Positions 6,670 to 62,300 of a stretch of DNA of 64,000 bases are shown piece by piece (positions within the stretch are counted from its first letter, which is position 1; each line of letters opens with the position of its first letter). The notes under the pieces were generated by a model. That model did no database searches, was not told the origin of the DNA, and was given only the letters and a program-made list of their open reading frames with translations. The stretch is taken from contig CASICI010000001.1 of the NCBI GenBank assembly GCA_949373145.1, positions 1 through 64,000 on the forward strand, read 5' to 3'. Source of the DNA: an uncultured Phycisphaerales bacterium. Its GTDB lineage: Bacteria > Planctomycetota > Phycisphaerae > Phycisphaerales > SM1A02. Both the position numbers and the translations under genes were made by a program.

Positions 6670-7872
6670 ATGAGCTTTTCAACGATCCCAGAAATCATCG
6701 AAGACATCCGCAACGGCCGCATCATCATCCTCGTCGATGACGAGAATCGTGAAAACGAGGGAGACTTCGTGGTCGCGGCCGAGTTCGCCACTCCCGAGGT
6801 GGTCAATTTCCTGACGCGTGTCGGTGCTGGCTACCTCTGCGTCGCTCTGGACATGGAGACCTGCGAACGACTCGAACTCGAGCCGCAGGGAAACAACAAC
6901 ACCAGTCTTCGACAGACGCCTTTCACCATCAGCGTCGACGGTCATCCGAGACATGGTGTGGGAACGGGCATCAGTTCACGTGACCGCGCCAAGACGATTC
7001 AGATGCTCGCGGATTCCGATTCCAGGCCGGACGACTTCGTCCGACCCGGGCACATCAATCCCCTCCGGGCCCGGGATGGAGGCGCCCTGGTTCGCACCGG
7101 GCAGACCGAGGGCTCCGTCGACCTGTGCCGCCTCGCAGGAATCCGACCGGCCGCCGCGATCATCGAGATCGTCAACCCCGACGGTGAAATGGCTCGCATG
7201 CCGGATCTCGAGAAATTCTGCGTCGAACACGAACTCAAGATGTGCTCGGTCGAACAGGTCATCGAATATCGACTGACCCAGGAGGCTCTGGTCGAGAGGA
7301 TCCAGCCGCTCGACGGGCGCGAGGTCGTGACCTCGGTGGGCACGTTCAGACTGTTCGCATGGCGAAGCACGATCGATGCGCTTCCTCACGTGGCCTTCTG
7401 TGCGGGTGGAGTCGGAGATCGTTCACCGGATGGCGGCGTGCCGACCTCCGATCAGCCGACGCTTGTGCGCGTTCATCGCCGTGATCTTCTGGGCGACATC
7501 TTCGGGGTGTCTTCCTCACCGGACAGGTCTTCAAGTCGCGATGAACTGCTCGCATCGCTCGAGATGATTCAGAAGGAAGGTCGTGGGACCGTCGTCTACA
7601 TGCGTCCTGAATCGGGAAACCTTGAGCTGACGCGTGGTTTGCACGAGCTTTCACGAGGAATCCAGGACGTCAACGCTCCCGATCTGGCACACCCGGAAGG
7701 TGTCGGCGGAAGAGCGATGCCCATGGATCAGCGCGAGTTCGGCATCGGAAGTCAGATTCTCAGAGACCTTGGTTTGTCCAAACTCCGCCTGATCACCAAC
7801 CACCCACGTCCCTGGCCGACATTGAGCGGCTTCGGATTGGAAGTCGTTGAATCGGTACCCATCGAGAAGTGA
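6670..7872 (+). CDS. ribB: 3,4-dihydroxy-2-butanone 4-phosphate synthase fused to a degenerate GTP cyclohydrolase II-like domain
   Basis: 400 residues from the ATG at 6670; an upstream in-frame extension overlaps the divergent M42 gene and is unlikely. Residues 1-205 are a complete RibB domain: DDENRENEGD at 23-32 (acidic loop and Mg/substrate binding), HTP-loop equivalents, and a Gly-rich RPGHINPL segment. It converts ribulose 5-phosphate to the four-carbon riboflavin precursor. Residues 206-400 align with RibA (GTP cyclohydrolase II). However, the ECLTGD and CDCG zinc-cysteine motifs read RDLLGD and a serine-rich stretch (about 271-290), and GQEGRGIGL reads QKEGRGTVV (301-309). All three zinc ligands are gone, so the second half should not hydrolyse GTP. 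A separate RibA must exist elsewhere. Confidence 0.9.
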   Translation: MSFSTIPEIIEDIRNGRIIILVDDENRENEGDFVVAAEFATPEVVNFLTRVGAGYLCVALDMETCERLELEPQGNNNTSLRQTPFTISVDGHPRHGVGTGISSRDRAKTIQMLADSDSRPDDFVRPGHINPLRARDGGALVRTGQTEGSVDLCRLAGIRPAAAIIEIVNPDGEMARMPDLEKFCVEHELKMCSVEQVIEYRLTQEALVERIQPLDGREVVTSVGTFRLFAWRSTIDALPHVAFCAGGVGDRSPDGGVPTSDQPTLVRVHRRDLLGDIFGVSSSPDRSSSRDELLASLEMIQKEGRGTVVYMRPESGNLELTRGLHELSRGIQDVNAPDLAHPEGVGGRAMPMDQREFGIGSQILRDLGLSKLRLITNHPRPWPTLSGFGLEVVESVPIEK

Positions 7873-7968
7873 TCCGTGGGGGTCCGTCAGGGCACGACCA
7901 GCGCATCCTTTTTGTGAACCGTTCGTAGGATGACAGTCCATGTCATCCCGGACCTCGGAGAGACGCTC

Positions 7969-8793
7969 GTGACGAATCTGCTCATTTCCTTCCTCATGAT
8001 GGTGACCACCCTTCCTTTTCTGCAGGAAACCCCTCAGAGCACGCCGACCGAGGTGGATCGCCTGCTCGACAGACTTGAAGACGCGCACGGTGCCATCCGA
8101 TTGTTCTCTTCTCCCCTGACGTATCGCAAGGACTACGACCTCGAAGGAGACTTCGAGACCCGGCTGGGCGAAATCGCGATCACCATCCAGCCGCCCGAGC
8201 GAGACGTGGTGCTCGTCTTCGATCGAATCATCGATGCTTCTGGTCATGGAACCTCGAAATCGGAATACCACGCCTTCGAAGAGGGTTGGTGGGTCGAGAT
8301 GACGCCTGATCGAAAGCGGATCGTTCGACGGCAGATCTCGAGACCCGGTGAGGATCTCGATCCCTTCAAGCTGGGGGAAGGACCGTTTCCTCTGCCTCTC
8401 GCTCAGAAAGCCGAGACCGTCCGGCGCCGTTTCGAACCGTCGATCGGAGTGGTTCCCGACGAACCTCTCTTTCGTGCTCTGAAGGATGTGGAGGTGCTCC
8501 ACCTCGTTCCCCGACTCGGGACACCTGCGCACGAAGATCACGAATCGATCGATCTCATCTTTGAAAAGACCGGACTTCTTCCCGCAGGCGTCCTTGTTCG
8601 TCACCGCAACGGTGACCGAACCTCCGTATGGCTTCGTTCACCAGAGCTCCATACCGACGAGAAGGCCTTCATGAACGGACGCATTCAGAGGGAGATGATC
8701 GCTTTCCAGGATCAGGCGGTCGAGGAGGGGTGGTCGATCGAGATCAAGCGCCTTGCCGAACCGATTTCCGAAACGGAAGGTTCACGTCCCTGA
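7969..8793 (+). CDS. LolA-like exported protein
   Basis: About 274 residues if started at the GTG at 7969, which has GGAG 8 bases upstream and leaves a short leader MTNLLISFLMMVTTLPFLQ that looks like a signal peptide. An ATG at 7930 in the same frame is possible but lacks a spaced ribosome site. The middle of the protein (LDRLEDAHGAIRLFSSPLTY, then alternating beta-strand-like segments with WWVEMTPDRKRIVRRQI) resembles the LolA/LolB-type half-barrel seen in many planctomycetal proteins that carry lipids or lipoproteins in the periplasm. The match is by pattern only. Its TGA stop overlaps the next gene's ATG (TGATG at 8791), implying translational coupling with the metallopeptidase that follows. 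Confidence 0.55.
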   Translation: MTNLLISFLMMVTTLPFLQETPQSTPTEVDRLLDRLEDAHGAIRLFSSPLTYRKDYDLEGDFETRLGEIAITIQPPERDVVLVFDRIIDASGHGTSKSEYHAFEEGWWVEMTPDRKRIVRRQISRPGEDLDPFKLGEGPFPLPLAQKAETVRRRFEPSIGVVPDEPLFRALKDVEVLHLVPRLGTPAHEDHESIDLIFEKTGLLPAGVLVRHRNGDRTSVWLRSPELHTDEKAFMNGRIQREMIAFQDQAVEEGWSIEIKRLAEPISETEGSRP

Positions 8794-11447
8794 TGCATTT
8801 CGCCCGTCTGCTCGCACTTCTTCCAACGACACTTCTCGCCTCCACGGTCGCATCGGGACAAGCGAATGAACTTCCGCTGGTGCCCGAAGCCCCATCGCTG
8901 CGAAGTGACGTCGCGCAGGCGCTCGAAGCGGTCTGGCTCGATGAAGACGAGCGTGTCGAGGGACGACTTCACCACGGTGTCTGGACCGACGAGGATCTGG
9001 ATCTGCCTGATCAGCGTGCCCGTGCGATGCTTCACACCGCAACATGGGACGACGACGTCTTCCTCGACGACGCTCTCTCGGTGGAGCGACGTGCGGAGGC
9101 ACTCGTCCTTCGGGGTCGATGCGCCGATGCGATCGATCTCCTTGAGTCGAGCCAGACCGAATCCGCGATGATTCTGCGCGTGCGTGCCTTCGAATCCTGT
9201 GGACGCTGGGACGATGCACTCGAAGAGATCGATTCACTTCTTTGGTCGGAGGGCGGAGATCGACGCGCCGGTGAACGCCTCGTCGATCGTGTGGAAGCCC
9301 GAGCGGTGCGAGCCCGCATTCTTGGAAGACCATCCAGCGAATATCGATTGATGATGACCGAGCTCGCTCGAGTTCGCGAGGAGATCGATCGTTTCGACTG
9401 GCGGCCACGGCTCATGGAAGCCCGCCTGCTTGTGGAAAAACACAAACGTTCCGAGGCGATTCCCGCACTGCACGAGACGCTTTCACTCAACCCCAGATGT
9501 GCCGAGGCCTGGTTCCTTCTGGGACGCATCGCTCTCGGTGGCTTTGATTTCGATTCGGCCGCTCGGGCTTCACTCGCCTTGCGCCGACTCTCGAATCGAA
9601 GTGTCTTCGCCGATCTGCTGGATGCCGAATCGGCGTTGATCAACGATGACCCGGAGACGGCGATCGGTATTCTCGACACGCTGCTTGTGAGAGAACCCTT
9701 TCTTCGCGAGGCTCTCGCGCTTCGGGCGGCTTCGGACGCGGTCGCCTACGACATCGCTTCGGCACGCACTCGTCTTGATGCCATGGACGTGATCTTTCCC
9801 GGTTGCGCCGACGGATACCACACCGTGGGTCGATTTCTCTCCCAGAACCGGCAGTACGGGGATGCCGCGTTCTTTCTGGAAGAAGCGGTCTCGAGGCGAC
9901 CGAGGTGGTCCGCGCCCCTGATCGAGCTTGGACTTCTCGAGATGCAGTCGGGTCGTGACGAACGGGCGCTCGCTGCGCTGCAACGTGTCGCTCGTCTGGA
10001 CCCCTTCAACGAGCGTGCGGCATTCAGTCTGCGCCTTCTCGAGGAACTTTCCGTGTTCGAGAGCATCGAGACCGAACATTTCATCATCCGCTATCTGCCC
10101 GGAGAGGATGAAGTGCTCGTGAGGATGATGCCCGACGCGTTGGAGGCGATGCATCACGAGGTGGTGGCGCGTTTCGATCACGAACCGACTGCGAAGACCG
10201 TGATCGAAGTCATGCCAGATCACGAGTTCTTTTCCGTCCGCATCACGGGAATGCCCTGGATCCATACCGTCGCCGCCTGCACCGGTCCTGTCATCGCGAT
10301 GGAGGTTCCGAGAAAGGGAGCGCCATCTCTGCACCTCGGCCTGTTCGACTGGCTGGACACGCTGCGTCATGAATACACGCACACCATCACACTGGACCGG
10401 ACTCGCAACAGAATTCCCCACTGGCTGACCGAAGCGGCCTCGGTGACCATGGAGCTGGCCCCGCGGGATTACCCGACGGCCCGAATGCTCGCCACGGAAC
10501 TTCAATCGGGCCAACTCTTCGACATGCAGGAGATCAACTGGGCCTTCGTGCGTCCCAGGCGTCCCATCGATCGGCAGCTGGCCTATGCGCAGGGTGCCTG
10601 GATGGTCGAATACATGAACGCGACCCACGGCTCCGATGCACTGGTCGATCTGCTCGACCATTATTTCGACGGGCTTCCCCAATCCGACGCGATGAACCGC
10701 GTCCTCGGTCTTTCCGAAGAGAGCTTTCATCGTGGTTTTCTCGACTGGGCGCAGGGAGAGGTCGCGGCGTGGGGTTTCTTCGCGTCACCGTCCGTCAACG
10801 ATCTGATCGAAGAACACGTTCAGTCATCCGATCCCGACGGCGTTGATGATCCCCCGGGTGATTTGAAGGCCCGCGCTTTCGTTCCCGATGATGCTCAGAT
10901 CGAACGGTGGTTGGAAGAGCATCCCGGTCATCCCGATCTCCTCGAGTTGATCGTTCGACGACGAATCGATCGTGATTCCAGAAATGATTCCGAGACCCTC
11001 GAGTATCTCAATCGATATCGTGTGGCTCGTCCCGTCGATCCCTATCCCGATCAGGTTCTCGCTCGACTTCATCTTGATTCCGATGAGCGACATCTCGCGG
11101 TCGCACCGCTTGCACGGCTTGAAGCACTCGAGACTCGGGATCCGCTGTACGCGCATCAACTCACTCTGCTTCTTCGTGAACTCGGTTCTTCCGAGGAAGC
11201 GCGATCCAGTGCCTCGAAGATGTTGCGAATAGATCCGTACCGACCCGAGTTTCATGAGCTTGCGGCGGCAGTCTCGATCGAGACCGGTCGTTTGGACGAA
11301 GCCCGTTCATTTCTCGAGGCATTGATCATTCTCGAACCGGATCAAAACAGGCATCCACGCCGACTCGAAGCTCTTGACCGGATCATTTCCAATCGGAATT
11401 CGAAACCATACGGTGAGATCTCCAGTGAGTCTCCTACCATGAAGTGA
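8793..11447 (+). CDS. Exported TPR protein with peptidase MA-like (gluzincin) domain
   Basis: 884 residues from the ATG at 8793 that overlaps the previous stop; a longer frame upstream would run through that gene. A signal peptide is evident (LLALLPTTLLASTVASGQA). Residues about 80-410 hold a chain of tetratricopeptide-like helical repeats rich in Leu, Ala and Arg. Residues about 420-660 form a zinc peptidase domain with HEYTH at 526-530 and a downstream Glu547 in HWLTEAASV, giving the HEXXH...E gluzincin arrangement of the peptidase MA family. More TPR-like helices follow to the C-terminus. It should act in the periplasm or at the cell surface. Substrate is unknown. Neighbours on both sides are exported proteins, suggesting a surface-protein handling unit. 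Confidence 0.8.
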   Translation: MHFARLLALLPTTLLASTVASGQANELPLVPEAPSLRSDVAQALEAVWLDEDERVEGRLHHGVWTDEDLDLPDQRARAMLHTATWDDDVFLDDALSVERRAEALVLRGRCADAIDLLESSQTESAMILRVRAFESCGRWDDALEEIDSLLWSEGGDRRAGERLVDRVEARAVRARILGRPSSEYRLMMTELARVREEIDRFDWRPRLMEARLLVEKHKRSEAIPALHETLSLNPRCAEAWFLLGRIALGGFDFDSAARASLALRRLSNRSVFADLLDAESALINDDPETAIGILDTLLVREPFLREALALRAASDAVAYDIASARTRLDAMDVIFPGCADGYHTVGRFLSQNRQYGDAAFFLEEAVSRRPRWSAPLIELGLLEMQSGRDERALAALQRVARLDPFNERAAFSLRLLEELSVFESIETEHFIIRYLPGEDEVLVRMMPDALEAMHHEVVARFDHEPTAKTVIEVMPDHEFFSVRITGMPWIHTVAACTGPVIAMEVPRKGAPSLHLGLFDWLDTLRHEYTHTITLDRTRNRIPHWLTEAASVTMELAPRDYPTARMLATELQSGQLFDMQEINWAFVRPRRPIDRQLAYAQGAWMVEYMNATHGSDALVDLLDHYFDGLPQSDAMNRVLGLSEESFHRGFLDWAQGEVAAWGFFASPSVNDLIEEHVQSSDPDGVDDPPGDLKARAFVPDDAQIERWLEEHPGHPDLLELIVRRRIDRDSRNDSETLEYLNRYRVARPVDPYPDQVLARLHLDSDERHLAVAPLARLEALETRDPLYAHQLTLLLRELGSSEEARSSASKMLRIDPYRPEFHELAAAVSIETGRLDEARSFLEALIILEPDQNRHPRRLEALDRIISNRNSKPYGEISSESPTMK

Positions 11448-11467
11448 TCATTCACCAGAGGTATGAG

Positions 11468-12847
11468 ATGTCGTTCCACACCAAGAATTCGAGCATGCTG
11501 ACTCTCATCGTCGCGACCTTCATCGCGTCCACTGGGTTCGGTCAGATCACGGACTTCGAATTCACTCTTGAAGACGTGGTCCTGCCGAAAGGCATCGGTC
11601 CGACCTGCGTCGATCTCCATGATCTCGATGGTGATGGAGACCTCGACGCCGTCGTGGCCGGCAGAAATCGCGAAGGCCGGGTGGTGATTCTTTCCGGAAC
11701 CGCCGACGGTGCTCTGGCCTTTGATCGTGAGTTGGTGGGGTTCGGTCAGACCGACTGGGTCGAAATCGCCGATCTCGACGGAGATGGACATGTCGAGATC
11801 ATCATGGCCATTCGAGACCTCGAGGGCGGCGTTCAGATCTTCGACGGCCTTCCCAATGGAGAGTTCGACGAGACGCCTCGCCGCCTGGATGCGGGCCGCG
11901 AATGTCGCTGTCTCAGAGTCCTCGACATCAATCTCGATGGTGACCTCGACATCGTGTCACTCGGTCATTACAGCGAGGATGTCCGTGTCCTCGCCGGTGA
12001 CGGCACCGGGGAGTTCTCACTCCTCTCCCGACTCCGAATCGCGCCATGGCGCAACGGTTATCCGTTTCCACAGAGCTTCACACTGCAGGATCTCGACGAC
12101 AATGGAGAACTCGATCTCGCGACGATCTCCCTCGGTACCAGTCGTCTGCACCTGAACCGTGTCGTCGACGGCCGCCTCACGGCTCCCACCAGATCCTGGA
12201 AGCCGCCAACCATCAACAACGGCGATCAAGGTGGCTGCGCCTACGGTGCCTGGGCTGATTTCGACGGAGACGGCAGTCTTTCCTGTGTGCTGCCTCAGAC
12301 CGCGTTCGGATCTCAGTGGTTTGCTCTCTTCGAGCTGGATGAATCGGGGTCGGTCGGGGAGAAGACCATCCTTCCGGGATCTTCCCAGGGCCTTTCCTGG
12401 TATCCCGCCGTCGGTGATTTCGATGGTGACGGCGACCCCGACCTCGTGATCGGCCACGCCCTGCCCGGACTCGTCGTCTTCCTGGAAAACGAGACTCCGA
12501 AAGGGGGACCGGAGGAATTCCTGTTCGCACAGACGTTCTTCGGGTTCGGCTTCGTGCGTCAGATGGTCGTGTCCGACCTTGAAGGCGATGGTGATCAGGA
12601 CCTCGTCGTCGTCGACATCAGCCTCGACAAGCTCGTTCTCATGCGCAACGGACTCATCGGGGGTCTTGCCGGCGAGACCTCGGAGGCCGACATCCCCGAT
12701 CTTCAGCCGCTCGATCCGGCTCTGGTGCCCGCTTCGACCAGTCTGGTGAAATGGTTGAGTGATCTGATGCCGGCCGAAGCTCGAGCGCTGCACCGTGCCC
12801 AATCAGCCGAGCCACCCGTGACTTCCGATGAAAGGCGCCGCCGGTGA
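11468..12847 (+). CDS. Exported FG-GAP/VCBS repeat protein
   Basis: About 459 residues. I prefer the ATG at 11468, with AGAGG 6 bases upstream, over a GTG at 11444 that overlaps the previous stop. The leader MLTLIVATFIASTGFG is a signal peptide. The body consists of repeated Ca-binding loops such as DLDGDGDLDAVV, DLDGDGHVEII, DINLDGDLDIV, DFDGDGDPDLVI and DLEGDGDQDLVV. Each is followed by a short beta blade, which is the FG-GAP/VCBS beta-propeller repeat of integrin-like and bacterial adhesin proteins. A non-repetitive tail of about 60 residues follows. Likely surface or secreted, binding calcium and perhaps polysaccharide or protein. The GTG of the next gene overlaps its TGA (GTGA). Confidence 0.85.
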   Translation: MSFHTKNSSMLTLIVATFIASTGFGQITDFEFTLEDVVLPKGIGPTCVDLHDLDGDGDLDAVVAGRNREGRVVILSGTADGALAFDRELVGFGQTDWVEIADLDGDGHVEIIMAIRDLEGGVQIFDGLPNGEFDETPRRLDAGRECRCLRVLDINLDGDLDIVSLGHYSEDVRVLAGDGTGEFSLLSRLRIAPWRNGYPFPQSFTLQDLDDNGELDLATISLGTSRLHLNRVVDGRLTAPTRSWKPPTINNGDQGGCAYGAWADFDGDGSLSCVLPQTAFGSQWFALFELDESGSVGEKTILPGSSQGLSWYPAVGDFDGDGDPDLVIGHALPGLVVFLENETPKGGPEEFLFAQTFFGFGFVRQMVVSDLEGDGDQDLVVVDISLDKLVLMRNGLIGGLAGETSEADIPDLQPLDPALVPASTSLVKWLSDLMPAEARALHRAQSAEPPVTSDERRRR

Positions 12848-13881
12848 GCATCAGACGTCATCTGTTCCCTGCGCTGCTGCTCGGTCTCGCATGCGAATCG
12901 GCCTCGGCACAATGCCAGGAGGGTCCCTGCGACGAACCACACGGTGGCTTCGGATGCATCGTGGACGAATGCTGCGAAGCGGTCTGCGACGTCGATCCCA
13001 ATTGTTGCGAGATCGGCTGGGATGAGTTCTGCGTGGTCATTTCCGAAGAGATCTGCGGCGGGCTTGCCTGTCCCGGTTCGCAGCCTTGTGATCAGTTCTC
13101 AGTCATTCCCGGCTGTGATGATCGTGATTGCTGCCGATTGACCTGTGACCATGATTGGTACTGCTGTTCGATTCAATGGGATGCGTACTGCATCGATCTG
13201 GCGACGGACATCTGCTCCACGCCCTTGTGCGAACTTCGAATTCCATCCGGAACCATCGATGAGTCCGAACCCTGCGACGAACGTCTCAACGATGGATGCA
13301 ACATGCTTTCCGAGGAAAGCACTCCGATCATGCTTGGTGACGTCATCCTCGGGACGACCACCACGTCCACCCCTCGTGACACTGATTGGTTCTCCTTTCA
13401 GCTCGAGGAGGCCTCCACGGTTCGAGTCGTTCTGGAAGCTGAATTCCCCGCCCAAGTGACTCTGCAGTCCGGAGTCTGTGCGGGACCTCTCGTGTTTCAC
13501 TCGATCTACGAAGCCCTACCGTGCTCGGGTGCCCGTGAGATCGATCTTGAATTGGGCCCCGGAGACTGGTTCCTGATCGTGTCTGCCGGGTTCGAACGAA
13601 TCGGTCTTCGTGCGTTTCTGCCCTGTCCTCTCGATGAACTCGAAGAAGGAGAGGACCCTTCGCCCACGTATTTCGGTGTCCGATATCTGCTTTCCCTTCT
13701 TCCCGGCGAGACGTCCTGCACGGCTGATCCGGATCTCGATGGTGACGGTGTCGTCGGGGGAGCTGACCTGACTCGACTGCTCGTGAAATGGGGTTCGGAC
13801 GATTCTGTGGGTGATCTCGATTGTGATGGCGTCGTCGGTGGGGGGGATCTCACGGTCCTGCTCTCCTACTGGGGCACCTGA
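12844..13881 (+). CDS. Secreted cysteine-rich protein with C-terminal dockerin-like repeats
   Basis: 345 residues from a GTG overlapping the preceding stop codon. After a signal peptide (LLLGLACESASA), residues 23-125 carry two copies of a paired-cysteine module: ECCEAVCDVDPNCCEIGW then DCCRLTCDHDWYCCSIQW, each closed by a further cysteine in a D.FC or DAYC context. These should form disulphide-stabilised units outside the cytoplasm. The middle is a beta-rich domain of no recognised family. The C-terminus (about 294-344) has two EF-hand-like loops, DLDGDGVVGGADLTRLL and DLDCDGVVGGGDLTVLL, each ending near a Trp-Gly. In planctomycetes this dockerin-like pair is common on exported proteins and probably serves as a sorting or anchoring tail rather than a cellulosome dockerin. 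Confidence 0.8.
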   Translation: MSIRRHLFPALLLGLACESASAQCQEGPCDEPHGGFGCIVDECCEAVCDVDPNCCEIGWDEFCVVISEEICGGLACPGSQPCDQFSVIPGCDDRDCCRLTCDHDWYCCSIQWDAYCIDLATDICSTPLCELRIPSGTIDESEPCDERLNDGCNMLSEESTPIMLGDVILGTTTTSTPRDTDWFSFQLEEASTVRVVLEAEFPAQVTLQSGVCAGPLVFHSIYEALPCSGAREIDLELGPGDWFLIVSAGFERIGLRAFLPCPLDELEEGEDPSPTYFGVRYLLSLLPGETSCTADPDLDGDGVVGGADLTRLLVKWGSDDSVGDLDCDGVVGGGDLTVLLSYWGT

Positions 13882-13994: not shown

Positions 13995-15053
13995 ATGGCA
14001 TTGATTCCCCGAGCCTCCTTTGTCCTTGCGTCATTCAGCGCGATTCTGCTTTCAACGATCGCTTCCGCGCAGAACTACGAGTTCTCGGTCGATCAGGAAG
14101 ACAGTTTCATCCAGCAGACCCTGAACGTCTCGATTCCGCTGAACGGAACGTTGATCGGCAACTACGACGCGAAGACCACGCCGGACGGTACGTCGACGCT
14201 TCCGGGCTTCTTCGGTGGAAGTGGAAACAACCCGATCGATTTCAGTGCGACTCTGGTGTTGTCCGGATCGAACTCGGTCTCACCCGTCGGGTCATTCGGT
14301 TTCACTCTCGACCCTTCAGGAACCTCTGCCTCGGTCGAAGACTTCGTGCTGAACGTTCTCGGTGACGATGCCGCGACCGTGACGGCCACTTTGAACCTGG
14401 TCTACAGCACCTTCCGCACCGTTTCACCCTCTGGTCTCTTCATCGGTGGAATCGAACTTCCGATTCCCCTCGGAGAGATCGAGCTGCAGAGCTGGACATT
14501 GCAGCAGGCCGCACCTTCGACGGTCCTGGTGCAGGATGCTTCCAAGGGCTCTTCCCTACTGGGCGTGCTCGCTCTGGAGTCCAACTTCACCTTCATCTTC
14601 TCGGGGGAGGAGATCGTCACCGATCCGATTCCATTTCTGCTGCCACTCGACGGTTCGTTTCTTCAGACTGACTCCGGCGCCGAAATGGCGTTTCTCTCCG
14701 AGTTGGAATTCGATCAGGTGATTCCGGCAGCCGAGGCGGCCATCGACGACCTTCCGTTGCCGGTTCCCACGATCCTGCCTCCTGGTGGCACCGCCAATCT
14801 GTTGATGTCGGCTTCAAGTGCCGAAGGAACAACCTTCGGAACATGGAATTCGAGCCTGGTCGCCACGGGCGTGCCGTCAGTGTGTTCCGCTGAACCCGAC
14901 ATCGACGGGAACGGTGTCGTCGACGGAGCCGATCTGGCGTCCCTTCTGGCACTCTGGGGTGCGGTGGCTGATGGGTCGCCCGTAGATCTCAACTGCGACG
15001 GCCAGGTCAATGGCGCGGATCTCGCGCAGTTGCTCGCCTCCTGGGCGAACTGA
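13995..15053 (+). CDS. Secreted protein with C-terminal dockerin-like repeats
   Basis: 352 residues. The start has AGAAGGAAAC upstream and is followed by a clear signal peptide (SFVLASFSAILLSTIASAQ). Residues 27-290 are Ser/Thr/Gly-rich with alternating hydrophobic strands, suggesting a beta-sandwich, but I recognise no family. Residues about 298-351 are a dockerin-like pair: DIDGNGVVDGADLASLLALW and DLNCDGQVNGADLAQLLASW. The 113-base gap after the previous gene has no obvious terminator, so it may have its own promoter. Function unknown; probably a surface or matrix protein using the same export tail as its neighbour. Confidence 0.75.
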   Translation: MALIPRASFVLASFSAILLSTIASAQNYEFSVDQEDSFIQQTLNVSIPLNGTLIGNYDAKTTPDGTSTLPGFFGGSGNNPIDFSATLVLSGSNSVSPVGSFGFTLDPSGTSASVEDFVLNVLGDDAATVTATLNLVYSTFRTVSPSGLFIGGIELPIPLGEIELQSWTLQQAAPSTVLVQDASKGSSLLGVLALESNFTFIFSGEEIVTDPIPFLLPLDGSFLQTDSGAEMAFLSELEFDQVIPAAEAAIDDLPLPVPTILPPGGTANLLMSASSAEGTTFGTWNSSLVATGVPSVCSAEPDIDGNGVVDGADLASLLALWGAVADGSPVDLNCDGQVNGADLAQLLASWAN

Positions 15054-21376: not shown

Positions 21377-24178
21377 TCACTCGATTTCAACGGGCGAACC
21401 GTTGAGAATCATGTCGCTTGGAGCACTGATGGTGCCACCATGGCTGCCCTGCATTCCGATGGTGAACGATTCTCCCGGCGAGACCGCATTGAACCATTCG
21501 GGTGAGGTCACCACCACCCGGCCGTTTCCAAGGATCTGATACTCCGCGGGCCACAGACCGGTCAGGTCGAACGAGGTGTCGAACTCGAGTGTCCAGACGG
21601 CTGGAACAGGCTCTTCACTGTTGTTGACGATTCGAAGCTCGGCGGTGAATCCGGATCCCCAGTCATCGATCACCAGGAAAGTGGCATCGATTCCGTCGAG
21701 TTGGCAGGCATCCAGAACGCCGTCCGAATCGGAATCATCCGCGCCCGAATCGATGTCGCAGGTATCGGGGATTCCATTTCCGTCGCAATCCTCGACCAGT
21801 CCCTGGCCGATCGCACAGGCATCACCCACACCATCTTGGTCGCAGTCTGCGAATGTTTCACAGCCGTCGGGTACTCCGTTGCCGTCGCAGTCGAAGGCGC
21901 CCTGCGAGATTTCGTAGGCGTCAGGGACGTCGTCACCGTTGCAGTCCGGATCACACTCATCGGGTCTTCCGTTTCCATCGAGATCGGTCGCACCTTCGGC
22001 GATCTCTTCGGCATCATCGACTCCGTTGTCGTTGCAGTCGACGACACCTTCTTCGCCGTAGATGAGAACACCATCATCGTAGACCGAGATCATCTCGGTC
22101 TTGGTGATCGACGACAGGCCGAAGGGCAGGGCGGACAGTGACGGATCATTTCCCGCATCCCATGCCGTGGTGGGTGCGGACGTTCCGAGACCCACCGTCA
22201 CCTGGCATTCACGACGATGACGTGTTCCCGGTCCAGGTCCGATGGTTTCGCCGTCATAGGAGATCTCGAAGTAGTACAGATCGTTTCCGGCATCGGCGAC
22301 CTGCAGTCCACCGAGTGTCCCACCGTCGAGGAATCCGCTTTGAACGAGGACGTCCTGTGCCGTATAGCCGGCCGCGAACACTTCACTCAGGTCGAGATGA
22401 ATCCGAAAGGAAAGTGCTTCACTCATGCGTGCCGGCCACGCGCTTCTGTTGTTCAACATGCAGCGGATGCGGGTCGAAGTCGCCCCGTTCTCGATGATGG
22501 AGGCTTCCACGAACATCTCGTTGCCATAGGAATCCCCACTGGGCGGAAAGACCTCGTCAGACAGCGAGTCACCACCGTAGATCATCGACATCCGTGCCAG
22601 CGCCGCGGTGAAACCGGCGTTGTAGTCGCAGGCGACCTCGTTCGCGATCCAATCGTTTCGATCATCCGACCAGTCATAGTCATCGGCGGAAGCGGGCCCG
22701 CCGACCAGTGCGCCCCAGAGCACGTGCCGATTGGGTCCTGGATCCTGAATCTGATCGTTCCATGAGCCATGTGCTCCGCGATGATGCGGCTTGACCGGAG
22801 GGTTTTCGCCGAACCCGCAGACGTAACTGGAATTCCTCGGGTTGTCTCCGAGGATGTAGTTGATCTGCTGCTCGCCGAACGCTCGGTAGTCTTCATCGGG
22901 CGTGTCACCGACCATTTCAGCGTAGGCGAAGGCGATGAACGCCGTATTGGCCGCATAGCGCAGTGATCCCCATTGATTCAGCCAGGCAAGACCACCCGTG
23001 GTGTAGGCGATTCCTCCACCCGGGAGCCAGTGTTCGAGATGTTGTCGAACGTAGTTGTTGTAGACGTCCTTGCCCGTCAATGCCGCGAGCAGACATGCCG
23101 CTCCGTTGATCTTGCCATCCCATGACTGAGCCCAGAAGGGGTCGGCACCGGAGTTCGCGTAATGAACCTCCGAGGCATCCAGATAGGATTGTTCTCCGGT
23201 GGCTCGATGAAGCCATGCAGCCGCCCAGCACAGTTCATCGTGGTAGCCCGACCAGGAGTTGTAGGCGGAGGACACTCCCGGAATCGATTCGGTGTAGTTG
23301 CCTCGGTGGGTGTTCGCGAACTCGTACAGCTGGCGGGCATGAAGAAGAAGTGTCGCTGCATAGGTCGGATCATCCGAAGCGAACAGCATCGATGCCGCAG
23401 CGAGAAAGGCCGCAGATTCCGCGGCGGGCTCGCTGCCCGGGTGCTCCGGGGTCAACCACCAGATCTTCGGTCGGTACCCGGTCGCATCCGTGTAGATCTC
23501 GGGGGCTCCCCAGAAGCTGTGTGCGCCATCACCCTGCCCGATCTGACCGCAGAAGACATCGGGTTCCGGATGTGCCGCGATGCACCAGTCGGCATGCCAC
23601 TTCAAGGTGTTCAAGAGATCATCCATCTGACCCGAGGAGCGGTAGCCGTCTTCGAATTCGACACCACTCCATGCCATGGTGGTCATCGCGGAACTGATCG
23701 GAAGCACGAACGTCGGTGAGTCTCCGGCATCCATGTATCGATTGATGATCCCCGGATCGACGTCGTAGCTTCCGTTCACCTGTTCGAGTTCATAGTTGAA
23801 ACAGTCGCCTCTCCACCCGAGGCGATTCCCATCTGAAAGGTCTCCAGCCCGTTGTGCCGCGTAGAATGCGATCGATTTCTGTATGGCTTCTCCGTAGTTG
23901 AATGGTCCGTCTCCCTGGGAACCTCCGCCATCGTCAGGACAGACACCCCACTTTGAAAGAAGAAGCGCGAGATCCGCGCCTCCGACCATTCCGTCCCCAT
24001 CGACGTCTCCAGCACATGGACTCGCGCATGGACCCCACGTCGAGAGCATCCTGCTGAGATCCGCACCGTCCACTCCGCCATCGCCGTCGAGATCACCCGG
24101 GCATTCTGCGTGGGCGTATGAAAGCGTGAGCAACGTGGTCGCCGCTCCGGTGCACAACTTCAAGGAAGTTCTCTTCAT
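21377..24178 (-). CDS. Secreted multi-domain GH9 cellulase with dockerin-like, Ca-binding repeat and CBM2 modules
   Basis: 933 residues. Order: signal peptide (1-24), dockerin-like pair (about 28-77, DLDGDGGVDGADLSRML and DVDGDGMVGGADLALLL), GH9 catalytic domain (92 to about 530), a beta-sandwich, seven thrombospondin-3-like Asp loops (about 722-830, DCDGNGVPD type) and a C-terminal family 2 cellulose-binding module (about 835-933, with exposed Trp residues). Catalytic residues are Asp150/Asp153 in the DAGD motif and Glu514 in ANEVACDYNAGF. The conserved KPHHRGAHGSW (463-473) lies in between. The enzyme should hydrolyse beta-1,4-glucan outside the cell by inversion. The dockerin-like pair is N-terminal here, unlike in the other exported proteins of this window. 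A hairpin follows the stop codon. Confidence 0.93.
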   Translation of the reverse strand: MKRTSLKLCTGAATTLLTLSYAHAECPGDLDGDGGVDGADLSRMLSTWGPCASPCAGDVDGDGMVGGADLALLLSKWGVCPDDGGGSQGDGPFNYGEAIQKSIAFYAAQRAGDLSDGNRLGWRGDCFNYELEQVNGSYDVDPGIINRYMDAGDSPTFVLPISSAMTTMAWSGVEFEDGYRSSGQMDDLLNTLKWHADWCIAAHPEPDVFCGQIGQGDGAHSFWGAPEIYTDATGYRPKIWWLTPEHPGSEPAAESAAFLAAASMLFASDDPTYAATLLLHARQLYEFANTHRGNYTESIPGVSSAYNSWSGYHDELCWAAAWLHRATGEQSYLDASEVHYANSGADPFWAQSWDGKINGAACLLAALTGKDVYNNYVRQHLEHWLPGGGIAYTTGGLAWLNQWGSLRYAANTAFIAFAYAEMVGDTPDEDYRAFGEQQINYILGDNPRNSSYVCGFGENPPVKPHHRGAHGSWNDQIQDPGPNRHVLWGALVGGPASADDYDWSDDRNDWIANEVACDYNAGFTAALARMSMIYGGDSLSDEVFPPSGDSYGNEMFVEASIIENGATSTRIRCMLNNRSAWPARMSEALSFRIHLDLSEVFAAGYTAQDVLVQSGFLDGGTLGGLQVADAGNDLYYFEISYDGETIGPGPGTRHRRECQVTVGLGTSAPTTAWDAGNDPSLSALPFGLSSITKTEMISVYDDGVLIYGEEGVVDCNDNGVDDAEEIAEGATDLDGNGRPDECDPDCNGDDVPDAYEISQGAFDCDGNGVPDGCETFADCDQDGVGDACAIGQGLVEDCDGNGIPDTCDIDSGADDSDSDGVLDACQLDGIDATFLVIDDWGSGFTAELRIVNNSEEPVPAVWTLEFDTSFDLTGLWPAEYQILGNGRVVVTSPEWFNAVSPGESFTIGMQGSHGGTISAPSDMILNGSPVEIE

Positions 24179-53153: not shown

Positions 53154-53392
53154 GGCCCGGGGCGGCTTCACAGTGCGGCGTTTGTCTTTCGTCGAGTGTC
53201 TCATGGCGGGTGCCTTGGTCGATCGACTCGACCTCTCGCTGGCCACACGACCCCCTCACATCGGCTTCGAAGAACCCGACAAGACCATATTCATCGGATG
53301 AATCCCGCCCTAAAACGGTGCGAGAGGTGATTTTCCACGGTAATATCGGAACAACAAGCGACGGCAGGAGGCTGTTGCAAAGGAGATGCGCG

Positions 53393-56300
53393 ATGTCGGA
53401 TGCCCGCTTTGGATGGCTGGCCCGGTTGTTCCCTGTGACTGGAACGCTGTGCTGTGCACTTTGGTTCGTTGGTTCGTCGGCTGCGGCGTCTGCGTCGAGC
53501 GAGGTGCTTCAGGACGAGACCGCCGAGACCGAGGTCGTTGAGACCGACGGTCTTGATGACTCGGTCGAAGTCAGGTTCAACTTCAAGGATCAGACCTGGG
53601 ACGAGATCATCGATTTCTTCTCACGGTCGACCGGTCTTCCGGTGGTTCGTGAAACGGAGGTCCCGCAGGGCACGGTCACGTACATCTACCCGGAGCCCTA
53701 TCCGCTGCCCGAAGCCCTCGAGACCTTGAACATCCTGCTTCAGACCCAGGGTGTGATGGTCCGTCGCGAACGTGATCGCCTGTACCTTCAGAAGCTTTCC
53801 GAAATGCAGCGCGAGAACATTCCGACCTTCGTCGGCAAGCTGCCCTCCGAAGTCACCGACGACCAGGTCGTCACGGTCCTGATCCCGCTGGTGAACGCCA
53901 CACCCAGCACCATCGCCGAACAACTCGCCAACCTCGTCGCCAGCTATGGCTCGGTGACCGCGCTGCCACGGCAGAATGCCGTGATCGTCGTGGAAACCGC
54001 CGCACAGATCAGGCGCATCCAGAAGATCATCGATGAGATCGACCGTGAGGATGTCGAGAACCTTCTCGAATACATCCCCGTTCGTCATTCCACCGCGGTC
54101 GAGATGGTGAAGTCCCTGACGTCGCTCATGAGCGAGCGGGTCGTGAAGTACGTCGTCAATGCCAAGGGCAAGCAGATCAAGGTCGAGGACGAGGAACTTC
54201 CCGGTCTGAAGATCACCCCCGATGAACGCACCAACGCGATCATCGTGAAGGGAACGCGAGCTCGAATCGACCAGCTGAAGGAGACCATCCTCCTGCTCGA
54301 CGTCCCGCAGGGTTCCGTCGGTGGGGCACGGATGATGCGAACGGTTTCGGTGGGTCGAGTCGCCCCTCAGGCCGCCGCGACGAAACTGCGTGAGTTCTAT
54401 GAATCGGTTTCCGAGGAGATGCGTCCGACCGTGGTGGCACTCGATGATGTCGACAAGATCACGATCGTCGGTGATTCCGTTCTGGTCGAGGATGGCATCA
54501 CGCTGCTTTCCGATCTCGATGATCTCCCCGGCGGGTCATCATCCGCCTCCGGACAGAGCACCGAACTTCTGGCCATCACGCATGGGACGCCTGCTTCCGT
54601 GATCGATGCGATCAAGCCGATGCTCGGCTCCCGCACCTCTCGAAACCTGCTTCTTCTTCCCGGGCCCGATGGTGCATCGATCATCGTCACCGGTTCCTCC
54701 GCCGAGATCTCGAGAGTCCGAGGGATCCTGGATCTGATCGACCGACCTTCCAGCGTCGAGAGAGCGGTCGAGTTCCTCACCATCGAATCCAGCGATCCCC
54801 AGCGGGCGATTCGGCGTGCCACGGCGATCTACAACTCTCTTCACGGAGAATCCGATCCTCTCTATACGATGAAGATCGAATTCGATCAGTCGACGCGCGG
54901 ACTCACCCTGACCGGTGGCGTCATCGCCATCGAGCGTTTTCGAAAGGCGCTCACCCAGGCGGAAGCGATGATCATCGCACCTCGGACCGTTCGTCAGTTG
55001 TCCGTGACGAATGTGTCACCAAGCGCGATCGAGGCGCGGATGCAGTCGATGGCGGCCAAGCTCCTCGACCCCAGAGACGGCACCCGATTCGAAGCGCCTC
55101 GCTTCGAATCGATCGATGAACTCGGACTTCTGATCGTGGAATCGGATCCGGATGATCTCGAGCGGATCACCACGCTGCTCGCGCAGTTGGACGTGATCGA
55201 TGCCGGTCGACGTTCGATGATGATCGATCTCGAAGTCGCACGAGCGGCCGATGTGAAGACACAGCTCGAGGCGATGATCGAGGCCGCGCCCATCGTGGTG
55301 TCCGGTCGCACGATGCCTGCGCCCACCATCACCGAAATCGAACAGATCAACGCCCTGCGCGTCCTCGGTGACGAAGAGACCCTCGCCTTCATCGGCAGGT
55401 ACGCCGCCCAGCTGGACACCATCGAGATGTCGGACATGCCACCGATGCGTTTTCTTCAGGTGCGGACCGCGGATGTTCAGAATCTCGCTCGCTCGCTGAC
55501 TCAGGGATATGCGATGCGTTCCGCCGAGGAGCGAGCTTCGAAGCCGGTCCGGATCGAACCCGATCTGCAGACCAACTCCCTGGTGATCATCGCGCACCCC
55601 GAAGTGTTCGAGGAGATCGCGTCGATCGTCACTCAGCTGAACGACGTCAATCGTCTCGATGCGGAGGATCGGGAGATCAGAATCTTCCCGCTTCGTGTCG
55701 CCCGCGCGGAAGAGCTTGCTCGAACGCTGGATGACATGTTCCCGCAGCCACCTCTGCCACGTGATTCCCGTGGCCGGCCCCGTCCTGAACTCCAGCAGCC
55801 ACGTGAAGTCGTGGTGCGTGCCGATCGTCAGACCAATTCGATCATCGTCGATGCCCCGACGCAGCGAATGGCCGGATTTCAGAAACTCGTCGATCAGCTC
55901 GATCGGACCCAGCTCGCGGACGAATCCGAGATTCGCACCTGGAAGCTCCTTCGAAGCGAATTGGACTCGGTCGCGAGAACGCTCACCCGCATCGCGGATT
56001 CGGGCGGGTTCGGAAGCACCGACGCTGCCGGCTCCGCATCGGTCATGATCTCGACCGAGCCAGCGAGCGGCACGCTTCTGGTGTCAGGTCCCCCCGAGAT
56101 CTTCGCCCAGATCGATGAGATCATCACCGCGCTCGAGGCGGATGACGCCACTCCTCGCACCGGCCTGCGATTCTTCAGACTTCAGACCGCTCGTGCCATG
56201 GAACTGGAACCTCTCGTCCGCGAGATTCTTTCCGCACGTCTTCGCGAGGAGATCCCAGGTGGTGATGCTCAGGTCGACGGTCTGCTTGAAGTCAGCTCCG

Positions 56301-59300
56301 ATCGCAAGACCAACATGCTCATCATCCAGGCGCCCGAATCGGTGATGCCGATCGCCGCCGAAGTGATCGAACAACTCGATTCCGGCAAGGGTGTCCTCGC
56401 CGATCCGGTCGTTCGAGTCCGGGCTCTGAATTTCGCGGATCCAGCGATCGTCGCCGAAGCCTTGCGGGAGACCCTGCCCACGGTCACCAGTCCGGTCACG
56501 GGATCCCCTATCGAGATGCGATTCGTCGCCGCTCGAGGATCGAATGCCCTGATCATGGTGGGACTGACCGAGGATCTCGATCTGATCGATGCCATGATCG
56601 AACCTCTCGATGCGACCCCGGCGACCGACTCGGTCGATGCCCAGACCTTCGAATTGAAGCATGCGGAAGCGCGTGAGATCGCACCCATCATCGAACGAAT
56701 GCTCGTCGACCAGATCAACAACGACCCACGGGTTCTGATCGAACGAATCAGACGAAGTCGTGGTCAGGTCGCCGGCATGCCTCGAATCAAGGTCGACAGT
56801 GATCCGCGAACCAACAGCCTCGTGGTCAGCGGACCCAAGCAGATGGTCGTGCTCGCCCGGTCCCTGATCGAGAAGCTCGACCGTCCCGAAGATTCCGCCG
56901 GGCGTGTCCAGATCACCTTCACCCCGAAAAACGCTGATCCGGCTCGTCTCGTTCCCATGATCGAACGGGTGGCGACGGCTGCTGGAATCGGCATCGGTCG
57001 GCCGGAACTCGAACTCGTCGCCATTCCTGAAGCAGGGACCATCCTGGTCTTCGGTTCTCAGGACGACGTCACGCAGGTCTCTCAACTCCTCACCGAGCTC
57101 GATGCACGCTCCGCGATGCCTTCGGTGGATCTCAAGATCGTTGAAGTGACGCACGCCGATGGCGCTGCGATCGCATCCACGTTGCAGCGACTTCTTTCCG
57201 ATCGCAGTCGCTGGCCGGCCACGCTGCGCAACGCCATCGCTTCCGGAATCACGGTCGATGCTCCGACGGTCAGCCTCGAGAACGGCACCAACCGACTGCT
57301 GGTGACGGCACCGGCCTCGCTCATGCCGGTCGCGGACGCCTTGATCGCCCAACTCGATCAGCCATCCGATCTCACTCAGAAGGAAGTTCGCGTGTATCCG
57401 CTGATGCAGGCTCAGGCCGTCGAGGTCGCGGGCGCGCTGGGTTCGGCCATGGAGGCGCTTGGTGCGTTCACCACCGGCAGAGAGAGGATTTCGATCATCG
57501 CGGAGCCCTCGAGCAACTCGATCGTGGTCACGGGATCACCCAACCGCCAGGTCGAGGTGGCCCAGCTGCTCACCGGATTCGAGTCCGGAATCAGCAGCGA
57601 CGGAACGTCCGTTCGAACCATTCTGCTGAAGTATGCACGAGCTGAAGTCGTCGCCCCCATGGTGTCGAAGCTGATCGTGAGTCAGAAGACGCAGACCAAT
57701 GAACGCGTTCCCTCCTACATGCGTCGCTACATGGCCAGCCTCAACGAGGACTCGAATCCCACCGTGAAGGTGGAAGCCGATTCCCGCCTGAACGCCGTGG
57801 TGGTCGCCGGCCCCGCATCGATGCTCGCCGTCGCCCAGAAGGCGATCGAGCAACTTGATGTCGATCCCGCATCCGATCAGTCCGCGCGTCGCAGCGTCCG
57901 CGTGCTCACCATCGCCAACGCCGACGCCGACCAGCTGGCCGAGAGCCTGCGGTCACTCTTCGCCGATGGTGAGGATGGGCAGCAGCCTCCCGTCATCGAG
58001 GTCGATCTCGCGAGCAACGCACTTCTGGTGCGTGCGACCACCGAACAGTTCGACGTGATCACCCGGGTCACTCGTGACGTCGACGATGCCACCATGACCG
58101 GATCGCGTGAGATTCGCACGATTCCGATCGACGGTTCACGCGCCGATGCGGATGACGTGGCACGACTTCTGGAACGCATGCTCGAACGTGGTGACGGTTC
58201 CAAGGACGGTGTCGAGATCATTCCCCTCGATGAGTTGCTGCGTCGATATGGAACCTCGACGACTCCGAAGACGACTCCGAAGACGACTCCGAAGACGAAC
58301 TCTGAGACGACACCGGACTCCGAGTCCCGATCGCAGGCCGGCCTTCCTGGTGGGCGTGCGTCGTTGATCGCGGCGGTGCTGCTTGGATCGCAGGAGACCG
58401 TCGAACAGAAGGATGCTTCGGATTCAGACGTCATCATCGCGGTCGACCCCGAGACCAACAGCCTGATCGTCATGGGAAGCCCGCGCGCCGTGGAGCGCAT
58501 TCAAGCTCTGGCGACCCAGGCACAGGACGAACTGCCTGATGCGGGCACCACGGTTCGGACGATTCCCCTCCCCGAGGGAGTCTCACCGACCCAGCTTCGG
58601 AATCTCGTGTCACAGACGCTCCGGTCGATCCGACCTTCCGGAGGAAACGCCGGCGACCTCGCTCGTCGAGTCGGTGTCATCGCCGATGAAAACGCTCGCG
58701 CACTGGTCATCACCGCAAGTGATGCCGACTTCGAGACCGTCGCGTCTCTGATCGCGGCCTATGCACGACAGCCTGCCGCGGAGGAACTCACCTTGCGCAG
58801 CTATTCCCTGGAGAATGTGTCGTCACGTCGGGCGGCCGACGGACTGTCGACGCTGCTCCGTCGAGGAAAGCGCCCCGAAGTGGAACCTGCGGTCCGGTTC
58901 ACCCTGGACGGACGCGAGACCTCGTTCGACACCCGCGACGTCCACGTGATCTCCGATCTCGCCACGAATTCCCTGATGGTGCTCGCGCCGGTCGAGGCGT
59001 TCGACTTCATCGACGACTATCTGAAGATGCTCGATCAGGAGACGAGCATCGCCTACAGCACGATCAAGACCTACGAGATCCGATTCGCGCAAGCCAACGA
59101 GTTGTCACGCACGCTCGACAGGATCTTCAGTGCGAGGGTCCGTGGTCAGCGAAGCACCGGCACCAGGTTGATCGAACCCGAATTCGTGACCGATGCCCGC
59201 ACCAACTCCTTGATCGTCACCGCGTCCGCGGATCAGTTCAAGGAAGTCGAGGCGCTTCTGGGCACGCTCGACCGGGAGACCGGTCTCGAGAAGGAGCCCT

Positions 59301-62300
59301 TGACGGTGCTCGAACTCGCCGCCGCTCGCCCCAGTTCGATCAGCCGTGTGCTGGATCGGGTCGTGATCGGCGACGACCAGTCGATCCGTGCCAGCACCAT
59401 GATCGTTCCCGATGACGAGGCCGGCGTGCTCGTGGTCCGCGCCACGGCACCTGTTCTTTCGGAGATCAGGACGCTCCTTTCGGAACTCGATCGCGGTTCC
59501 GCCGCGGAGTTCCCCGTTCGTTCGATCGTGCTGGAACGTGCCGACGCCGGCGTCGTGGCCAGTGTCATCCAGAGGTTCTACGACGACAGAGCGCGGATCG
59601 CATCCGGTGCCCGGGGCCGGAAGCTCAAGCGTGAGGTCGCCGTGGTCGGTGACTCCGCCACTTCGACACTGCTGATCTCCGCAACCGAGGAAGAGTTCGA
59701 CGAGGTTCGTGATCTGGTCGCCAGACTTGATTCGGTCGAAGCCACCAAGGGTCTCGAGTTTCGTGTGTTTCCTCTCAAGCACGCACGTGCCACCGAGGTC
59801 AACTCCATCCTCCAGGAGGTCTTCGAGCCCATCATGTGGATGCGACGTGAAGGCCGGGGATCCGATGATCAGGTCATGACGGCCGTGATCGAACAGATGA
59901 ACGCCATTCTCGTCACCGGAAACGGCGAAATCTTCGACACCGTCGCACAGGTCTTCGCCGCGGTCGATCAGCCCGCGACCCAGGGGACGCAGCAGGTGGT
60001 GCGCGTCTACACGCTTCGCTCCGGCGAGGTGCGGGTTGCAAGAGACATGGTTCGTGAGGCGCTCGGGGTGAACACCAAGTGGTGGAACCAGGAGAAGAGC
60101 GGCAATGCCGTGATCGAAGCCGACACCAGCTCGCGCGTGCTCATCGTCGCGGCCTCCGAAGATGATCAGGCGCTGGCGAAGGAGGTCGTTGACACTCTGA
60201 ATGAAGCAGTCTCCATTCCCGAGCAGAGCGTCACCGTGCTGGCACTCGAGTACGCACCAGCCCGGGAAGTGGCCAGAACCCTCTTGAACTTCCTGCGTCA
60301 GCAGGCGGAGACGAGCGGAAAGCCTCGTTCCACCGTTTCGATCTCATCGAGCGACTCGGCGAACACGCTTCTCGTGTCGGCCTCCAAGGATGAGACCGCG
60401 ACCATCAAGGACCTCGTCTCCCGCATCGACATGCCTGATTCCGCCGGTGATCGCTCGATCGAGATTCTGCCTCTCGGACGCGGTGAAGCCGTCGAGATCG
60501 CCCGACTCGTCACGCAGCAGTTTCCCCGGCGATCGGGAACGCCCGGCGTCCTCGTGACCGCTGATGCCCGGACGAACTCATTGATCATCAATGCGCCAAA
60601 GGTGGAGTTCGCCCAGGTGCAGGCGCTCGTCGAGAAGCTCGATGGTCCACCCATGCGTGAAGAGACCCTCATCAGAACCTTCGCGTTGGACACCGCGGAT
60701 GCCGATCAGGCCATGAGTGTCCTGAAACAGGCGCTCGCACTCGACGCCGAAGGACGAACGACCGGTGCCACCGTGAAGGTGGAGGGTTCGGATGACGCCG
60801 CGGTCGAGGTCATCGCCCGAATCGTCTCGGACACCCGCTCCAACTCTTTGGTGGTGGCGGCCACGAGCGAGTCCTTCCCGGTGATCGAACAGCTCATCGA
60901 ACGACTCGAAGGTGCCCCCTCGGTGGCTTCGGTCGAATACCGGATCATCCCCCTGAAGCATGCCGAAGCCAGAGAGGTCACGCTCAATCTCGACATCGTC
61001 TTCCGAAATCGCGCAGGCCGCGATCTTGCTCCCTCCATCGACTGGACCCGGGACAATCAACTGGTCGTCGGCGCGACACCGGAACAGTTCGAGATGATAG
61101 AAACCATTCTCGACCAGCTCGACAAGCCGGGAGCCGTGGCGCGTCTCACGGAGTTCCTGCCGCTTGAATTCGCGGAAGCCGAGAAGGTCCAGAGCGCCTT
61201 GAGCTACTTCTACGGACCCTTCGCGGTCGGGGTCGACGATCCGGCGAAGAAGAACGTCCAGATCGCTGCCGACCTCGCCACCAATTCACTGGTGATCAGT
61301 GCCGATGCGAACGAATGGCCTGGAATCAAGTCCCTGATAGAGAAGCTCGACAGCGAGCTCTACGACTCCTCGTTGCAGCTGACGGTGCTTGCACTGAATT
61401 ATGCGGATGCGCGAAGTGTCGCTCGTGCGATCAATGGTGCGTTTCGTGGCCCCATCGAACGAAAGTCCCAGCGGGAACAGGGGCGTCGGCAGAACGACCG
61501 TGGCGACCGCGGTGATCGCGATGAACCGACCGCGCCCACGATTCTGGTCGAAGCCGAGGAATGGGTGAGTGCCGCTCCGGAAGAACAGACCAACACCATC
61601 GTGGTTTCCGCCAGCCGGAAGAATCTGGAAAAGATCAAGGGCATCATCGCGCAACTCGACGTCGCGGACTTCATGAAGCTGCCTCCGCCGCGCCTGATCC
61701 CCGTGATCAACGGGTCACCAGCTCAGCTGGCCGACAGTCTCCGGGAACTCTACGCGGCGGGTGACAACCGAGGTGGTGCCACCACCCGGATCATCGCCGA
61801 CGATCTGAGTGGGACCATCATCGTCCGTGCGGATGACCAGGAATACGCACAGATTCTCACGCTTGCCGAGGCCATCCAGCAGAAGGCCGATGCCCACGGG
61901 CTTTCAGTCCACGTCCTCGCGCTCGAGAATGCCGACGCTTCGAACATCGTCGGATCGATCCGATCCGCCTTCACGGCCCAGGCCCAGCGAACCGAGTCAC
62001 CACTCTCCCTCGAAGCGGACCTCGTCAGCAACTCGGTGGTGGTGGCCTGCACCGGTGCGATGTGGTCGGAGATTCAGGACACGATTCGACAGATGGATCG
62101 AATGCGCCCCTCCGGCGGGCAGGGTGTCTTCATCATCGAACTCGAGAACGTTCCCGCGGTGGAAGTTCTCCGGGTGATCGAGTCGATCGGACTCGATGCG
62201 TCCTCCGCGGACGGCGCAGCCGGTCGCCTGGTGGTCGAACCTGTGCGAGCCACGGCGCTCGAAGGACGGAACGCGCTTCTCGTCGCCGCGAATCCCGCCG

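Follow-up and report, generated by a model that had tools for sequence, protein, structure and literature searches.

Four closely packed genes on the forward strand of the window, by which we mean the whole 64,000-nucleotide stretch of DNA from an uncultured Phycisphaerales bacterium that was analysed here, probably represent two independently conserved units lying within an old chromosomal block. We put the probability of this reading at roughly 0.6. The first unit, genes A and B, would act in envelope biogenesis and quality control, and the second, genes C and D, would encode one two-chain surface protein. The initial annotation had described the four as a single module for making or processing surface proteins. 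What stood of this was its identification of the individual proteins; what did not stand was the four-gene unit, which was found in 10 of 61 genomes, the conserved units being A-B and C-D. The single module is partly supported: the four genes form two separate pairs, and their adjacency comes mainly from a long conserved stretch of chromosome.

Layout of the locus

All four genes were recovered on the forward strand at the positions given in Table 1, and the junctions reported earlier between them (TGATG, a 20-base gap and GTGA) were confirmed. An alternative GTG start of C at 11444 would overlap B. A signal peptide had been assigned to each protein, and this is weaker than claimed for A, in which, with the GTG at 7969 taken as the start, the hydrophobic stretch is not preceded by any positive residue; we regard the four proteins as putatively exported. 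The description of the run as having no metabolic neighbour was incorrect. A gene for ribBA lies on the same strand as A and ends 96 bases upstream of it, and D is followed by gene E, then by a PLP-dependent threonine-dehydratase-like gene (thrDH) and a thiC-like gene. Farther upstream of ribBA, the minus strand carries the M42, argS and UPRTase genes. Neighbours were named from Pfam, apart from argS, thiC and threonine dehydratase, which are putative assignments.

Promoter and terminator scans gave results close to chance (1 against 1.3 and 6 against 4.9). A perfect inverted repeat with 8-base arms, GGATGACA-GTCCA-TGTCATCC, is present at 7928-7948, just upstream of A; in a like place upstream of A in the relative G003, a different repeat with 5-base arms was seen by eye. 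Elsewhere in the window, a most unusual repeat protein is encoded by an open reading frame of at least 3596 aa on the forward strand (53210-64000), which runs off the end and contains 32 separate stretches matching Secretin_N (PF03958). The minus strand encodes a glycosyl hydrolase of family 9 that carries a cellulose-binding CBM_2 domain (21377-24178) and, running off the start, a protein whose N-terminus shows a methylation motif like that of type IV pilins (2-832).

Table 1. Positions of genes A to E and of their main features in the window
Feature	Coordinates	Strand	Basis or remark
Gene A: putatively exported LolA-fold protein, 274 aa, no Pfam family	7969-8793	+	GTG start
TGATG overlap, A stop / B start	8791-8795	+	ORF reading
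Gene B: putatively exported TPR - Peptidase_MA_2 - TPR protein, 884 aa	8793-11447	+	Pfam
HEYTH zinc-binding motif of B, residues 526-530	10368-10382	+	H526, E527 and H530 in 47/47 aligned homologues
Candidate third zinc ligand of B, Glu547 (WLTEAA motif)	10431-10433	+	E547 in 47/47 aligned homologues
Gene C: putatively exported FG-GAP beta-propeller protein, 459 aa	11468-12847	+	PF13517, 1.2e-30
GTGA overlap, D start / C stop	12844-12847	+	4-base overlap in 12/18 measured loci, this one included
Gene D: putatively exported Cys-rich / PPC-like / dockerin protein, 345 aa	12844-13881	+	Profiles and model
D: two tandem helical Cys-rich modules, about residues 25-130	12916-13233	+	Invariant Cys pattern in 19 sequences; helical in model
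D: PPC / collagen-binding-domain-like beta sandwich, residues 136-288	13249-13707	+	Superposition on 5iku
D: dockerin, residues 295-345	13726-13878	+	Superposition on 2y3n_B
Gene E: another dockerin-ended protein, travels with the block, outside both pairs	13995-15053	+	Pfam, NCBIfam and locus maps

Gene order in relatives

Gene order was compared in 61 genomes, namely the window's own genome (G000, 75.5% complete) and 60 relatives, using gene maps drawn from tblastn. Gene A was found in 58 of the 61 and B in 53. Two genomes with only weak B matches of less than 25 bits (G021 and G052) were left out of the counts, so that both genes were present in 51 as used, and 7 of the 58 genomes with A were without B. 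Taking as neighbours genes on the same strand within 1.2 kb, A and B were neighbours in 36 of the 51 genomes, comprising 26/31 in the window's family and 10/20 outside it. As a control we used argS-M42, a pair from the same window which is on one strand and as tight as A-B. These were neighbours in 11 of 46 genomes and in none of the 18 outside the family; for the comparison outside the family (10/20 against 0/18), a simple Fisher test uncorrected for shared ancestry gave a p value of 0.0005. When the control was relaxed to allow 6 kb and either strand, the count rose to 15/46, with one genome outside the family (G045).

A second sample comprised 80 named loci, from genomes partly overlapping the first. 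At 72 of these the sequence reaches 1.5 kb or more upstream, and A was beside B in 65 of them (58 on the same strand and 7 divergent) and was not seen there in 7. At L161, L173, L174, L178, L182, L184 and L190, M42 and A are each reversed, A being divergent from B and still adjoining it. The genes upstream of the pair differ: ribBA in the window's block, an HD_4 protein in three loci checked (G022, G023 and G026), RuvX in two checked (G037 and G050), and in G048 a 505-aa protein on the other strand without a Pfam match. Overlap lengths in relatives, for which starts were chosen by script, were measured in 35 A-B and 18 C-D loci. In 9 of the 35, no gap separates the two genes, which either overlap or abut; the 1-base overlap is seen also in G003 and G011, and a 4-base overlap in 4 others. 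In G005 a single open frame spans both genes. A-B behaves as a conserved pair across the order and in several gene contexts.

The pairing has exceptions. Fifteen of the 51 genomes do not have A and B as neighbours, among them all six f4 genomes; in one of these (G047, checked by Pfam) ribosomal protein L9 precedes B. In G002, which is of the same genus and 96% complete, there is no B match and A, C and D are contiguous, with 117 bases between A and C (L077, about 6948-7064). Of 199 genomes sampled across the phylum, 117 have relatives of B at 1e-40, and 32 are matched by the A profile at 1e-5. Of 20 distant B loci, about 4 of which hold little sequence upstream, A was beside B in one (G125). 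Since B is common there, A rarer, and one distant locus in twenty paired, B seems not to depend on A in these genomes. The pairing of A with B thus looks like a trait of the Phycisphaerales, with one possible case beyond.

Orthologues of C and D were defined by cut-offs chosen by eye, namely 93 bits for C and 108 bits for D, the latter sitting just over the best paralogue (105.5 bits). Both genes pass them in 22 of the 61 genomes, every one from the window's family, and lie side by side in all 22. No C-D orthologue passed the same cut-offs outside the family, though A-B occurs there. Weaker matches are widespread, with FG-GAP in 54/61 genomes and D-like matches in 42/61. One open frame runs through C and D in seven of the 22 (G009, G017, G018, G020, G026, G028 and G032), although an open frame across two genes is no proof of one polypeptide. 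In the second sample, 59 loci extend 4 kb or more beyond B, and the same 20 of them are matched by both the C profile and the D profile. C-D behaves as a conserved pair, seen in one family.

Could all this adjacency be slow decay of synteny, with no functional pair? The flanking housekeeping block is kept in the same genomes, and A and B are apart in the 15 genomes mentioned above, as such a view would expect. We nevertheless consider it very unlikely, since A-B persists in different contexts and outside the family exceeds its control, while C-D is adjacent wherever it was found and shares one frame in seven genomes, as A-B does once.

The four genes together tell a different story from the pairs. 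A-B and C-D share a locus in 10 of the 61 genomes (G000, G003, G004, G006, G010, G018, G019, G028, G029 and G036), with E sitting between B and C in G019 and G029. All ten retain flanking genes of a block ordered argS ... ribBA-A-B-C-D ... thiC, thrDH at minimum. In six other genomes (G009, G016, G020, G022, G030 and G032) C-D lies away from A-B, and kilobases of sequence after B are without it. Among the remaining carriers of C-D, the contig runs out at or close to the end of B in G015, G017, G026 and G031, and G014, which is 74% complete, yielded neither A nor B. Genes of the argS-thiC block are seen at 20 of the 22 C-D loci in the second sample, and the other two (L131 and L185) are short contigs. 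At 13 loci of this sample, thrDH or thiC follows B without C-D. This figure was used in place of a script count of 20/58 loci 'without C-D' with a block gene; of that count, L182 has C and a weak D near the contig end, and at L152 the ribBA gene lies beyond B. As far as seen, C-D comes and goes within the inherited block.

These observations bear directly on the proposal of one surface-protein module, in which A would carry, B would cut, and C and D would be the clients. In its favour, the genes are packed with overlaps in the window's genome, all four are together in ten genomes, and C-D follows B at 20 of the 59 second-sample loci that reach at least 4 kb past it. Since the ten genomes all keep the flanking block genes, as do 20 of the 22 C-D loci of the second sample, this adjacency says little about a shared job. 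A run seen only in one inherited block fits the common ancestry of that block, and being predicted by it gives no independent sign that A-B acts on C-D. Moreover, A-B occurs across the order without C-D orthologues at the cut-offs used, C-D is demonstrably elsewhere in six genomes, and G002 keeps A-C-D without B. We therefore hold a single module to be quite unlikely. Conservation of gene order in relatives had been set as the test of the proposal: for the four-gene set the genes are apart in most relatives, and each pair is kept. The possibility that the run serves a dockerin system alone was dropped, as G044, G048, G056 and G060 (f5) retain A-B in the absence of any D-type or dockerin match.

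The four proteins

The protein encoded by A had no match in Pfam (to E 1) or NCBIfam, and a sequence search of the PDB gave nothing usable. An AlphaFold model built from a 35-sequence alignment (mean pLDDT 89.7) looks like one domain, and its best matches among solved structures are LolA proteins (8v1k_A, Z 17.2, rmsd 3.1 over 184 residues; 6f3z_B, Z 16.8, rmsd 3.1 over 188 residues). Lower matches include the Thermus protein 2yzy (13.1), ependymin-related proteins (12.6), RseB (Z 12.5), VioE (11.8), MucB (Z 11.4) and LolB (11.4 to 10.7). The earlier call of a LolA-like protein is thus upheld by the fold of the model, without a sequence family. The LolA family PF03548 has no match in the window's A at E 1, and matches 3 of 35 homologues weakly (best 0.003). 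A separate LolA is encoded elsewhere in the same genome (G000:C20, 61.9 bits), which makes A a second LolA-fold protein of this organism; a profile comparison of the two gave a weak match (P 0.0009, probability 22.6). Homologues of A have their own conserved segment around GEGPFPLP. A strict lipobox with a hydrophobic stretch was found by pattern in 9 of 37 homologues, and in neither the window's A nor the A of its genus.

RseB and MucB are LolA-fold sensors that control envelope proteolysis. A might similarly be a sensor of lipid or of mislocalised lipoprotein which switches B on or off, a proposal that concerns the mechanism of A-B only. The structural matches to both proteins point this way, as do the pairing of A with a peptidase gene and the one case of a shared open frame. 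Set against these are the better matches to LolA (Z 16-17) and the apparently single domain of A, which at 274 aa seems to be without the second, C-terminal domain of RseB; nor does a fold show function. The likeness lies in the LolA-like fold; none of the genes named in the neighbourhood is a sigma or anti-sigma gene. We regard a sensor role as rather doubtful, and favour for A a role with B in envelope biogenesis and quality control.

Protein B has TPRs on both sides of a Peptidase_MA_2 domain (PF13485, 35.8 bits against a cut-off of 32.4). It contains HEYTH at residue 526, and a Glu 17 residues after HEXXH. As the motif and this Glu are identical in all 47 aligned homologues, a metal site is under selection, and B is a putative zinc peptidase. 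The description of B as a TPR-gluzincin holds. Peptidase_M48 was absent among the Pfam matches of B to E 1. In a profile search of the PDB, the best 60 of 131 matches were TPR and designed proteins aligned over the TPR positions. Identity of B with PrsT, the TPR protein of XrtA/PEP-CTERM systems (TIGR02917), was rejected at 57.2 bits against a cut-off of 312.2.

The FG-GAP assignment of C agrees with its PF13517 match, and in several C proteins the C-terminus is a lone Ca loop resembling half a dockerin. D had been called Cys-rich and dockerin-like, and its C-terminus is indeed a dockerin by fold, with a sequence score below the Pfam cut-off (PF00404, 14.5 bits against 22.9). In the model it superposes on the solved dockerin 2y3n_B over 51 residues with a Z of 8.8 and an rmsd of 1.1, and a profile comparison with the same structure gave an E of 4.9e-6. 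Two Ca loops are present at the C-terminus, and their Asp positions are invariant in the family alignment. At E 0.1, 16 of 19 D family members match PF00404 and 7 of 19 match NF041540. The beta sandwich ahead of the dockerin resembles the PPC/collagen-binding domains of clostridial collagenase (5iku, Z 12.7, rmsd 2.2 over 111 residues). The Cys-rich part had no Pfam match in the 19 members scanned, and none was listed for it in a fold search which hardly probed that part. Its module (CC..VC..D..CC...WD..C) recurs widely in genomes of the family. The window's genome holds 35 matches to D including D itself, the four others shown all being to the dockerin end. Gene E has a weak match to NF041540, below the cut-off.

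Possible roles and known systems

A working scheme for A-B can be drawn from the folds and motifs. A would use its half-barrel to hold or receive a client that is lipidated or hydrophobic in some other way, B may gather clients or envelope assembly machinery through its TPRs and could cut clients that fail or need maturation, and the pair, possibly in contact, would act in outer-envelope building and quality control. C and D would be made together by coupled translation and, probably touching one another, act as one surface or extracellular protein with Ca-binding parts.

A shares with LolA its fold over about 184 residues, and a fraction of its homologues share a lipobox with LolB, a lipoprotein that accepts lipoproteins from LolA and places them into the outer membrane. 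It differs from both in that the window's A is without PF03548 and lipobox and has a segment of its own, in the presence of a separate LolA in the genome, and in being paired with a peptidase gene. LolB-like proteins of Bacteroidota were recently discovered by a search led by remote homology and structure (PMC11885536). Since that LolB was found by remote homology, a relative of LolA/LolB recognised by fold in planctomycetes is unsurprising. For B, the nearest described build is BepA (YfgC), a periplasmic M48 metallopeptidase of E. coli which promotes maturation of LptD or degrades it (PMC8423444). Both combine a zinc-peptidase motif and TPRs in one protein, exported in BepA and putatively so in B, and by this analogy B may have a role in the envelope. 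Unlike BepA, B has Peptidase_MA_2 with no M48 match, its TPRs flank the catalytic domain, and it is 884 aa long. Carried further, A-B could be a previously undescribed Phycisphaerales machine for outer-membrane assembly and quality control, in which a second, LolB-like LolA-fold protein and a dedicated TPR zinc peptidase would couple lipoprotein (or lipid) delivery to proteolytic maturation, perhaps as one polypeptide in G005. We consider this specific version a long shot.

D resembles the GC-type dockerin-anchored proteins (NF041540) in having a dockerin by fold, and relatives of D, as well as E, match that family to the degree given above. A cohesin/dockerin 'planctosome' has been proposed for other Planctomycetes, from freshwater (PMC6461901). 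In contrast to such a system, cohesin PF00963 had no match in the window's genome at its 75.5% completeness, nor in G001-G003; in the 61 genomes any match was found in 10, and one above the cut-off in 6. A literature search returned no description of the A-B or the C-D pair.

The sorting of proteins to and across the planctomycete envelope is, to our knowledge, poorly understood, and the order-wide link between a LolA-fold protein and a TPR zinc peptidase offers a concrete point of entry. C-D would represent a dockerin-bearing surface protein of two chains or one, in genomes mostly without detected cohesin. The locus also illustrates that overlap-packed genes in such genomes need not form one functional module.
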